This document shows positions 38,424-43,247 of a stretch of 44,297 nucleotides of DNA, in pieces. The translations under genes and the position numbers were made by a program. Each line of letters begins with the position of its first letter. Position 1 is the first letter of the stretch. The DNA is from a virus. Under the pieces are notes generated by a model. That model made no database searches. It saw only the letters and a list, made by a program, of their open reading frames with translations, and was not told where the DNA came from. Location: positions 1 to 44,297 of IMG/VR virus record IMGVR_UViG_3300044533_000683; one strand, written 5' to 3'.

Positions 38424-38788
38424 TTTTTTTTATTATCATCTGATTGCGGTTTTTTGCCACCAAAAGAAATTAACTCTAAATATGCAGCAAGCTGATTAGC
38501 AACGCCAGTTATTCCACCTTCGCTAGATTGGCACATAGCAAATAATTCTTTGTCTGTGAATTGCTCAGATAATCCAAAATGCAGTAATTCTAAAATTGTT
38601 GCAAAATCACTTAAAATTAATTTACGCAAATAAACAGTATGTCCATTCATTATGTAAGGCTTGCCAATTTCTTTTTCTTCAACATAACCAGCCCCAGTCA
38701 CCGCAAGCACGGCTTCTAACGTAACGTGCATGTCAAATTCTTTATCACCTAGCTTAATTTTAATTGTGCTATCAGATAGTTTTGTCAT
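38405..38788 (-). CDS. Tail assembly chaperone, short form (G-like part)
   Basis: 127 residues in frame 0 (IKIKLGDKEFDMHVTLEAVL; HFGLSEQFTDKELFAMCQSS), a normal size for tail chaperones. Near its end AAA AAA AAG sits just before the stop, where a -1 shift gives the longer product. The ATG overlaps the tail tube stop (TAATG). Confidence 0.9.
   Translation of the reverse strand: MTKLSDSTIKIKLGDKEFDMHVTLEAVLAVTGAGYVEEKEIGKPYIMNGHTVYLRKLILSDFATILELLHFGLSEQFTDKELFAMCQSSEGGITGVANQLAAYLELISFGGKKPQSDDNKKKTIVKA
38423..38431 (-). promoter_or_regulatory. Programmed -1 frameshift site (A AAA AAG)
   Basis: Eight A then G on the minus strand, with A_AAA_AAG in frame-0 phase (codon AAG at 38425-38423 is codon 122). 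It is the dnaX-type heptamer. Shifting after AAG joins frame 0 to the -1 extension that reads GAC AAT. Confidence 0.9.
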
Positions 38789-40556: not shown

Positions 40557-41170
40557 AAATTATAAACTCTATTAATATCAAGTAAAGCCTTCACCGAAAA
40601 AGGCAACTCATACATATTATTATTAAATGAAACAGGCTCTCTGCTTTCGTAAAAATGACTGGTTAGCAACTTAATTGCATGGATAAAATGCTCAGGAACA
40701 TCATCGGTGCTATCACCATAACCAACCACATAATTAATCGTTACTGATTGTGGGTGGTCACGCACACTAGGATATGACTGGTTATATTTTAGCCTAATCT
40801 TGCCAACAATACTATCAGTATCAACCTCATAAATATCTGTGGATAAAGTTTGACTTACGCCGTTAACATCAATATAAGTTATGCTTGTTATACTTGATAA
40901 AGGCGCACAGTTTAGCTCAATGTCACCATAAAAACTTAGCGGAAAATCATCTGTTTTCATGCGCCATGTTTGATTTATAAAAGCCCTGCCTGTGTATTCC
41001 TCGCAATAATTCCTTGCGGCTTTTTGATATGAGGCAATAACTGTATCTTCGCTATTGCCATCAACTCGCAAATGCAATTTCATATCAGCAAGAGAAACAG
41101 GCTCAATCGCACTATCAATTACTTTTACAAACGTTGGCTTATTATTTTTGCGCATAAAGTCCGTAATCAT
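40553..41170 (-). CDS. Head-tail connector protein, gp6-like
   Basis: 205 residues. The core IEPVSLADMKLHLRVD, then YQKAARNYCEEYTGRAFINQ, is typical of phage gp6-like adaptors that bind the portal ring. It is longer than HK97 gp6 by a C-terminal extension (DVPEHFIHAIKLLTSHFYES). Start ATG at 41170; one at 41155 is possible. It overlaps the glycosyltransferase gene by 29 nt, so the foreign-looking cassette is fused tightly into the operon. Confidence 0.88.
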   Translation of the reverse strand: MITDFMRKNNKPTFVKVIDSAIEPVSLADMKLHLRVDGNSEDTVIASYQKAARNYCEEYTGRAFINQTWRMKTDDFPLSFYGDIELNCAPLSSITSITYIDVNGVSQTLSTDIYEVDTDSIVGKIRLKYNQSYPSVRDHPQSVTINYVVGYGDSTDDVPEHFIHAIKLLTSHFYESREPVSFNNNMYELPFSVKALLDINRVYNL

Positions 41171-41816
41171 TGCCTATAAACTCTTTTAATTTTACGTTAT
41201 TATGGTCATTTTGCCAAGTTGAATTATTCTTATGTCCTATTCCAAGCCCATCATGCAGCCCCTTTATTCCAATGCACAAATCGCTTTTAAACTCAATATA
41301 TTTATCAACATCTAATCGCCATAATTCTATATCATAAAATGGGTCATTGCTATTAAATATATTTTTATTCCGTAACAATAATTCTGTTTTTATTCCAGTT
41401 TGGCAAAGGCTAGCATGTTGCATATTTTTATGCACATGATAGTTTTTGTATTTCAAATTATAATATTTAGCGCAACCTTGCCCAAATAAATCATGCTTTT
41501 GCAATTTATTATAATAATATTGCACATATTGCGGTGAATACCAGTCATCATCTTCAAAAAACAATACATTATCAGATTGAATTTTATCCAGAGAAAGCAA
41601 CATATTACTTCCAAGGCTATTAACTCCTTGCTTACGTTTTTTCTTAGATATGATTAAATCAGTAATTAAATCGCTTTCAATATCAGCATTGCCATCATTA
41701 ACAACAATCCATTGGATATTTAAGCCAGTTTTTTGCCTGCCGACATAATGCTCACATAACTTAAACGCTTTGGGGCGGTTGCCAGTGCATGTTATCAAAG
41801 TAATATCATAAGTCAT
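41142..41816 (-). CDS. GT-A glycosyltransferase in the head module
   Basis: 224 residues. Nucleotide-sugar fold: ITLITCTGNRPKAFKLCEHY (5-24), IQWIVVNDGNADIE, and the metal-binding acidic motif VLFFEDDDWY (84-93). Later Asp/His residues (GIKGLHDGLGIGHK) could be catalytic. The sugar and target are unknown: possibly virion proteins, given its position in the head operon. Starts by ATGA overlap with the methyltransferase. Confidence 0.82.
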   Translation of the reverse strand: MTYDITLITCTGNRPKAFKLCEHYVGRQKTGLNIQWIVVNDGNADIESDLITDLIISKKKRKQGVNSLGSNMLLSLDKIQSDNVLFFEDDDWYSPQYVQYYYNKLQKHDLFGQGCAKYYNLKYKNYHVHKNMQHASLCQTGIKTELLLRNKNIFNSNDPFYDIELWRLDVDKYIEFKSDLCIGIKGLHDGLGIGHKNNSTWQNDHNNVKLKEFIGNDYGLYAQK

Positions 41817-42361
41817 TTTTGAGCCACCGCAAATATATGAATTGGAATTTTTCTTTTTTCTTGATGTTCACCAATATTATTTAATATAATATCATATTCG
41901 CCAGCCGTTGTCACCGCAATATTTCTAAACCCTGCATCAACTAGCAAACATCTCATTCCTTCGGGAGTAAATCTCCAATAATCGTTAGGATAACCATGCA
42001 CAGGAAAACTAAATAATGTGGTAAGCACAATCCACCCATCATCTTTAAGCACTCTATGACATTCAGATAAGCCAACCGCTGGATATTGCACATGCTCTAA
42101 GACTTCACTGCATAAGATTGATTGAAAGCTACAATCATTATAAGCTAAATTATGAATATCTGCTATTTCATCTACGCCTTGACCTTCCTGCATATCCACA
42201 CATAGCCAATCACCGCCAGATTGCAAATCTTTGTTGCAATTCCACCATGCGGGGGCATCAAATCGTTTGCTTCCAATTTCTAAAATTGGCGATTGCAATA
42301 ATTCCTTATGTTGCGTCAAATAGTTTTTAATCCTGCCACGCACGCTATTAGGGTATTTCAT
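41813..42361 (-). CDS. SAM-dependent methyltransferase
   Basis: 182 residues, class I fold: SPILEIGSK (24-32) as the SAM-binding loop, GDWLCVDMQEGQGVDEIAD, SILCSEVLEHVQYPAVGLSE (motif with LEH), and DGWIVLTTLFSFPVHGYPND YWRF. Target unknown; small phage enzymes of this group often act on sugars, so it may serve the neighbouring glycosyltransferase. Overlaps both neighbours by 4 nt. Confidence 0.87.
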   Translation of the reverse strand: MKYPNSVRGRIKNYLTQHKELLQSPILEIGSKRFDAPAWWNCNKDLQSGGDWLCVDMQEGQGVDEIADIHNLAYNDCSFQSILCSEVLEHVQYPAVGLSECHRVLKDDGWIVLTTLFSFPVHGYPNDYWRFTPEGMRCLLVDAGFRNIAVTTAGEYDIILNNIGEHQEKRKIPIHIFAVAQK

Positions 42362-42939
42362 AAATCCTCTATATCTTTCATTTCAAAGCAAGTTAAAGCA
42401 GTTTTGCGGGTGCAATTTACAATTTTAACATCATCTAAATATTTTGCAGCATTTTCAAATGATTTTACCCATTTTTCATAAGGGCTTGGCTTGTTCATTT
42501 TTCCCACATGGTCACCAAAAAAATGACGCTTATTATCTGTGATTTGCATGTCATAGCCAAGCAATGCAATTTCTTTAGCACCAAACAATATAGCCAAATT
42601 AACCGCTTGAAAACCACTATTGCCACCAAAATGGATATGATTTTTGCGAGAAAATGTATTGCCAGCCTCACCAGCGATAATATTTAAGCCATATTGTTTT
42701 GCTGCGCTTTCGTCTTGCGTCCATTTCTCAATTTGCAAATCAGGCAAGCCCTGATTATGAACCCACCAATCGCCATCACAAGCATATAATGCGTGCGCTT
42801 GCTCGCACAACTTCCAAGCGTCATTTATTAATATTATTCGCCAACCCTCGGATATTTTTTCTTCGGCTTTTCTGCAATCTTCTCTTGTGAGGCTATTTCC
42901 TGTTGCGATGCAGATAACTCGCCCCCAGCCTCTTCGGTA
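42358..42939 (-). CDS. GNSL-motif protein, probably made by -1 frameshift from the upstream gene
   Basis: 193 codons from 42939, open back to a TGA at 42949-42951 but without ATG, GTG or TTG before 42810. The reading shows conserved-looking content before 42810: RVICIATGNSLTREDC then RIILINDAWKLCEQAHALYA and CDGDWWVHNQG, the pattern of a Rossmann-like family (IxxxGPSL, then NDAxRLAPWAD and ACDxxWW) common in phage genomes, from memory of such sequences. A TTG at 42810 would remove that conserved start. An in-phase slippery heptamer at 42939-42945 would join it to the 137-residue gene, giving a 296-residue protein. Function unknown; neighbours are sugar-modifying enzymes. Confidence 0.7.
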   Translation of the reverse strand, partial: YRRGWGRVICIATGNSLTREDCRKAEEKISEGWRIILINDAWKLCEQAHALYACDGDWWVHNQGLPDLQIEKWTQDESAAKQYGLNIIAGEAGNTFSRKNHIHFGGNSGFQAVNLAILFGAKEIALLGYDMQITDNKRHFFGDHVGKMNKPSPYEKWVKSFENAAKYLDDVKIVNCTRKTALTCFEMKDIEDL

Positions 42940-43247
42940 AAAGGGTTTTCATTAATTCCTTCCTCCTTACCAGCTTCAAAAGTTCCTATTTCAGCACCAG
43001 AGCCAATTAAAACACCCGCCCCATTTTCAGTTAATGTTGCTTGCCAACCCTCACTTTCTGAAATAATTTCTTGTGGCAATTCAACCTCATTTGCAGTTGG
43101 TGCATCTTTTGCAAATACTGCCCACCCTGCACCGATAGCACCTTCTGCAACATCGCTATCAACATCATAAACGCCTTCAATAAAATCAGAAGGGTGAATA
43201 TTTCCTTTAACGCACCACTTAAACGGCTTAATAACTTGTATTTTCAT
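42834..43247 (-). CDS. Small head-module protein (frame-0 product)
   Basis: 137 residues. The start IQVIKPFKWCVKGNIHPSDF then IEGVYDVDSDVAEGAIGAGW is typical of small proteins found near phage capsid genes, with an SH3-like beta content. The rest is acidic, disordered, and ends KPKKKYPRVGE. The frame-0 end overlaps the -1 frame of the GNSL protein by 106 nt. The first 103 residues would be the N-terminus of a frameshift fusion. Confidence 0.8.
   Translation of the reverse strand: MKIQVIKPFKWCVKGNIHPSDFIEGVYDVDSDVAEGAIGAGWAVFAKDAPTANEVELPQEIISESEGWQATLTENGAGVLIGSGAEIGTFEAGKEEGINENPFTEEAGGELSASQQEIASQEKIAEKPKKKYPRVGE
42939..42945 (-). promoter_or_regulatory. Candidate -1 frameshift site C_CCT_TTT
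   Basis: CCCTTTT on the minus strand fits X_XXY_YYZ, and the frame-0 codons are CCT (102) and TTT (103), exactly in phase. A -1 slip leads into TAC CGA AGA, the start of the GNSL frame, only 10-12 nt below the frame's opening stop. Confidence 0.55.

Follow-up and report, generated by a model that had tools for sequence, protein, structure and literature searches.

A putative programmed -1 frameshift joining a small post-capsid protein to a glycosyltransferase-like domain in phage head gene modules

The window analysed here comprises 44,297 nucleotides of the IMG/VR virus record IMGVR_UViG_3300044533_000683, and it raises the question of how a conserved reading frame that has no start codon of its own is translated. 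This frame, called b, is open on the minus strand from 42948 to 42358, right behind a TGA at 42951–42949, and the first ATG, GTG or TTG in it is a TTG at 42810, with none before codon 47. That TTG lies past the GNSL motif (codons at 42889..42900, minus; GPSL is the family version), which is 5' of all usable b starts; the initial annotation had noted that no usable start precedes the motif back to the TGA at 42949–42951, and the ORF check agrees. The start-less frame b overlaps, in a -1 relation, gene a (42834..43247, minus, ATG at 43247), which encodes a small post-capsid protein of 137 aa when unshifted, consisting of an N-terminal domain, a variable linker and a basic C-terminal tail. Upstream of the pair are the capsid gene (44295–43774, minus, Pfam Phage_capsid) and one small gene (43760–43290, minus), and downstream there is a methyltransferase and family-2 glycosyltransferase pair, directly 3' of b (41142–42361, minus), followed by head-tail adaptor genes. 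The methyltransferase/glycosyltransferase pair sits inserted among the head genes, and glycosyltransferase genes are also present near the homologous locus in P1 and S20.

The predicted product of frame b matches phrog_4603 over its full length (E = 2.3e-46, residues 14–195 on profile positions 1–171 of 178), and the window frame is thus a member of the family that contains P1 PmgO and D3 Orf7 and is annotated as 'alpha-2,3-sialyltransferase'. The match to the MptE-like family PF01973 reaches 17.7 bits, under the curated cut-off of 34.6. Among solved structures the best profile match is the GT42 sialyltransferase Cst-II, over the second half of the domain, but the similarity is not significant (E = 0.02 with a 61-sequence profile), and a sugar-transfer activity of b is only inferred. 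Domain b is PmgO-like and glycosyltransferase-like by profile similarity. Twenty of 40 a-family members match phrog_2616, whose function is unknown.

Gene a carries the slippery heptamer C_CCT_TTT (CCCTTTT, 42939..42945, minus), which on recomputation is in phase 0 of frame a, as initially annotated. Translation also reproduces the clean fusion that had been deduced for a -1 slip at this site, a single a-b protein of 296 residues with the join ...GINENPF-YRRGWGRVICIATGNSL..., of which the post-shift part of frame b contributes 193 aa (42361..42939, minus, stop at 42360–42358). Both frames would be read in the stretch 42834..42945 (minus). Folding of the window sequence gives a candidate 6-pair stem 6 nt past the heptamer, with the 5' arm GAGGCU at 42927..42932 and the 3' arm AGCCUC at 42889..42894 (minus), which with z = -0.96 is not significant alone, and few close relatives are available. 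Some of the ribosomes translating gene a would slip back one base at C_CCT_TTT, assisted by the downstream RNA stem, and read on into frame b, so that one start would give two products, protein a (137 aa) and an a-b fusion of 296 aa that has the glycosyltransferase-like domain in place of a's basic tail. Such stem-aided programmed -1 frameshifting is very probably how the fusion is made, a judgement that rests on sequence, without data on proteins or ribosomes. What is inferred is how efficient the shift is, that the fusion is the minor form and what role it has.

By itself the heptamer of the window is modest evidence. CCCTTT or CCCAAA occurs in phase 3 times per 6881 codon steps in the other genes of the window, and the chance of finding one in the 16 codons available is about 0.7%, or about 8% for any XXXYYYZ heptamer; conservation lifts the case far above chance. 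Five other IMG/VR contigs, two of them 100% identical over b and three 89–92% (89–100% in all), retain the TGA and the CCCTTTT and likewise lack the start, with the heptamer conserved in L002–L005 and L008. The sequence AAGGAGG and a third-frame ATG (42950–42968, minus) are absent from 90%-identical relatives. When phages were searched at the nucleotide level with this region of the window, no match was obtained.

Homologues were collected from IMG/VR, GTDB genomes and phage records, which gave 191 distinct homologous loci with the motif. At 86 of them there is no start codon at all before the conserved GPSL, and an own start for b was rejected at these loci. An a-family ORF is found in the -1 frame at 86/86 of the start-less loci, and 84 of these ORFs run beyond the motif. 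Because -1 ORFs served to train the a-family profile, the 86/86 count is partly circular; loci found later are exempt, and a later scan added 31 clusters, of which the 19 start-less ones all carry a in the -1 frame. By the a-family profile an a gene is present in -1 also at 22 further loci with an incidental start, e.g. in D3. Distant start-less homologues, with 37–48% identity, keep the -1 geometry with lineage-specific slip sites, and no close homologue has an own start at the same point. About 75 homologues have their own start and are located elsewhere in the genome, so the b domain can do without the fusion. In 54.1 of 57.6 frameshift clusters (cluster-weighted) the gene immediately upstream is the capsid gene, as against 17/75 own-start loci. 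In two of the loci, L006 (5013–6506) and L042, frame b extends about 300 residues past the glycosyltransferase-like domain, suggesting a further domain.

The phase of the slip sites was counted in 63 clusters at 70% identity, with cluster weighting. XXXYYYZ heptamers are in phase in 41.5/63 clusters, compared to 14.6 and 8.8 out of phase, and CCCTTT or CCCAAA in 15.3/63, compared to 1.0 and 0.0 in the other phases; for the slip heptamers this enrichment has a p of about 1e-6. The new frameshift-like clusters (n = 25) show the same, with CCC in phase in 21 versus 7 and 7 in the other phases, and heptamers in 12 versus 1 and 2. The sites differ between lineages, and C_CCT_TTN, C_CCA_AAN, A_AAA_AAR, T_TTT_TTN, G_GGA_AAG and A_AAC_CCY are all found, with A_AAC_CCY and C_CCA_AAC/G interchanging at the same position in one lineage. 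An alignment of the a proteins contains a single near-invariant proline in the otherwise unconserved linker, which in the window is encoded within the slip site. C_CCN precedes the GPSL codon by exactly 42 nt in the D3/Bordetella/Pseudomonas group, and in several lineages (Bordetella, Pseudomonas) C_CCN is all that is present, the A-site codon being unable to re-pair. An invariant C_CCN with a stem, where re-pairing in the A-site after -1 is impossible, is seen in L117, L118, L121, L127, L130, L134, L138, L146 and L147. At C_CCN loci without A-site re-pairing, slippage by tRNA-Pro alone is possible. In the start-less -1 loci L033, L062, L225, L306 and L331 the 120 nt preceding the motif contain no recognizable slip site, and L020 likewise has none close to the motif.

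The best supported RNA structure is found in the lineage of L006, where a 9-pair stem starts 5 nt after the A_AAC_CCY or C_CCA_AAC heptamer, with both-sided, compensatory changes in 8 of the 9 pairs and 94.9% of the stem cells paired, versus 79.4% in shuffled and 28–58% in slid controls. A stem of up to 10 pairs follows C_CCN in the D3/Bordetella/Pseudomonas group; the z-score of the D3 single-sequence fold is not significant. Rfam searches gave nothing at the gathering threshold in L015, L069, L006 and L121, and in the stretch of the window that was searched only chance matches below it.

Close relatives have 3–5 differences per 111 nt in the dual-coding stretch, compared to 35–42 per 216–228 nt in the part of a that is 5' of the heptamer and 41–54 per 471 nt where b alone is coded, the contrast of b with the overlap not being significant in one of three pairs. 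The linker of a just 5' of the heptamer has changed length among close relatives. Between the heptamer and the stop of a the divergence is low, and both frames therefore seem to be under constraint beyond the slip site. In GPSL, Leu is encoded by CTC or CTT in about 35/38 frameshift clusters and by CTG or CTA in about 2/38, compared to CTG or CTA in 26/48 own-start homologues; CTG or CTA before A would create a stop in frame a. At one locus from the later scan, L322, a and b form one in-frame ORF of 247 aa with a ribosome site, immediately 3' of a 389-codon ORF that occupies the place of the capsid gene, and this predicted natural fusion shows that an a-b protein is a product which selection can retain. 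The Leu codon of its motif is CTA, which is expected because frame a no longer has to stay open.

The pair is also present in known phages. In phage D3 orf6.5 overlaps orf7 with the slip site C_CCA_AAG at AF165214.2 5837–5843, the same overlap and slip-site arrangement as in the window, and in Tetraselmis viridis virus S20 C_CCT_TTG directly follows the b-frame stop. The deposited start of b in S20 is placed downstream of the motif, and in D3 and several relatives orf7 is likewise given a start after the motif (L015 2603–3061, L017 2657–3061, L288 1357–1761 and L290 1357–1761), by which the conserved N-terminal motif is lost. The phi1 record omits orf7, and that of PMG1 uses a non-conserved GTG start. 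As own start in D3 a GTG 66 nt before the motif was considered and rejected, since it is TTG in one relative and missing in most of the group. None of the annotated D3-type records examined contains a joined a-b gene. P1 PmgO and PAJU2 ORF10, in contrast, each have a start of their own, and no a gene overlaps them in -1.

The overlap geometry and the absent start, as well as the slip-site phase, the covariation of the stem in one lineage, the dual coding and the natural fusion, are established by comparison of sequences, and the last four together with the new loci bear out the programmed -1 frameshift that was proposed in the initial annotation. Initiation of b at a non-canonical codon near GNSL (ATC, GTT or similar), coupled to translation of a and without any frameshift, has in its favour that ATC-type codons are located just 5' of the motif in the window and that overlapping phage genes are often translationally coupled. 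It is very unlikely, however, as the in-phase enrichment of slip sites, the covarying stem, the -1 relation in every lineage and the L322 fusion would all remain unexplained, and the listed lineages show no alternative start codon in common. The runs in some lineages (A7 in L106 and L216, T9 in L010) are long enough to bring up transcriptional slippage on homopolymers instead of a ribosomal shift, but in the window no run in the slip region exceeds 4, and CCCTTT or CCCAAA sites with a stem 5 nt downstream have the anatomy of ribosomal frameshifting, making this explanation less probable still.

Split frames in metagenome contigs are often errors, and an indel, from assembly or from gene decay, might have divided one long gene. 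This is hardly credible when the same break occurs in independent contigs and in isolates and prophages (D3, PMG1, phi_D3, S20, Bordetella and Pseudomonas) at differing slip sites, and when both frames show purifying patterns; an indel error at 42939–42945 is excluded by the independent contigs and the isolated phages. Just as little can be said for a start of b at the ATG at 42952–42950, behind the strong AAGGAGG (42968–42962) at a usable spacing, with a +1 shift at CTT_T, since this ATG opens a third-frame ORF of only 19 codons and is missing in L004 and L005, which retain the TGA and the CCCTTTT. The AAGGAGG may instead be an upstream Shine-Dalgarno-like stimulator of the proposed -1 frameshift, not a start.

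The G_GGA_AAG heptamer is of the lambda type and is found in L011. Like the tail chaperone G/GT of lambda, the a/b pair would rely on a heptamer late in a small gene for its -1 slip, but it is located between the capsid and head-tail adaptor genes and not between those for the tail tube and tape measure, and the domains are unrelated. The window has a separate, classical tail-chaperone site of its own, A_AAA_AAG at 38429–38423 (minus). The gene with this site is at 38788–38405 (minus), and a -1 slip would join it to a frame downstream that extends to 38139. Frameshifting is known to add C-terminal extensions to phage head proteins, as in gene 10 of T7 and T3, in Lactobacillus phage A2 and Listeria phage PSA and with Ig-like domains, and such extensions have arisen independently in unrelated phages (PMC5009743). 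The a/b pair resembles them in having a head-module protein in a short and a frameshifted long form, but the carrier is a small post-capsid protein and not the capsid protein, and the added domain is glycosyltransferase-like and not Ig-like. The initial annotation had regarded a frameshift here as new; frameshifted extensions of phage head proteins as such are known, and the novelty concerns at most the a/b pair. In the open-licence full texts searched no report was found of a frameshift for this pair, nor of a phage sialyltransferase with ribosomal frameshift, and a paper on the D3 capsid (PMC12749128) mentions neither frameshift nor 6.5 nor gp7.

The pmgO gene of P1 is non-essential in a CRISPRi screen (PMC10695390), and a conditional role of b is therefore likely. 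Our best guess is that a tethers the enzyme domain to capsids or assembly intermediates, with the result that the enzyme modifies sugars of the head or surface or is carried with the virion; both the tethering to the head and the target of the enzyme are inferred from gene position. A more far-reaching and quite tentative idea, which may well be wrong, is that frameshifting has been gained or re-tuned many times in HK97-like phages and sets how much of a small capsid-associated protein is made relative to a virion-borne form with active glycosyltransferase. If this is true, the virions of HK97-like phages would bring their own sugar-modifying enzyme.

A conserved recoding event seems to have been overlooked in well-known phages, with the enzyme cut short by the annotations. 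Phage D3 in P. aeruginosa PAO1 is an experimentally accessible case with many natural slip-site variants, including the large C_CCN group in which the A-site codon cannot re-pair. With this arrangement, a component of the phage head may be equipped with an enzyme domain at a controlled ratio.
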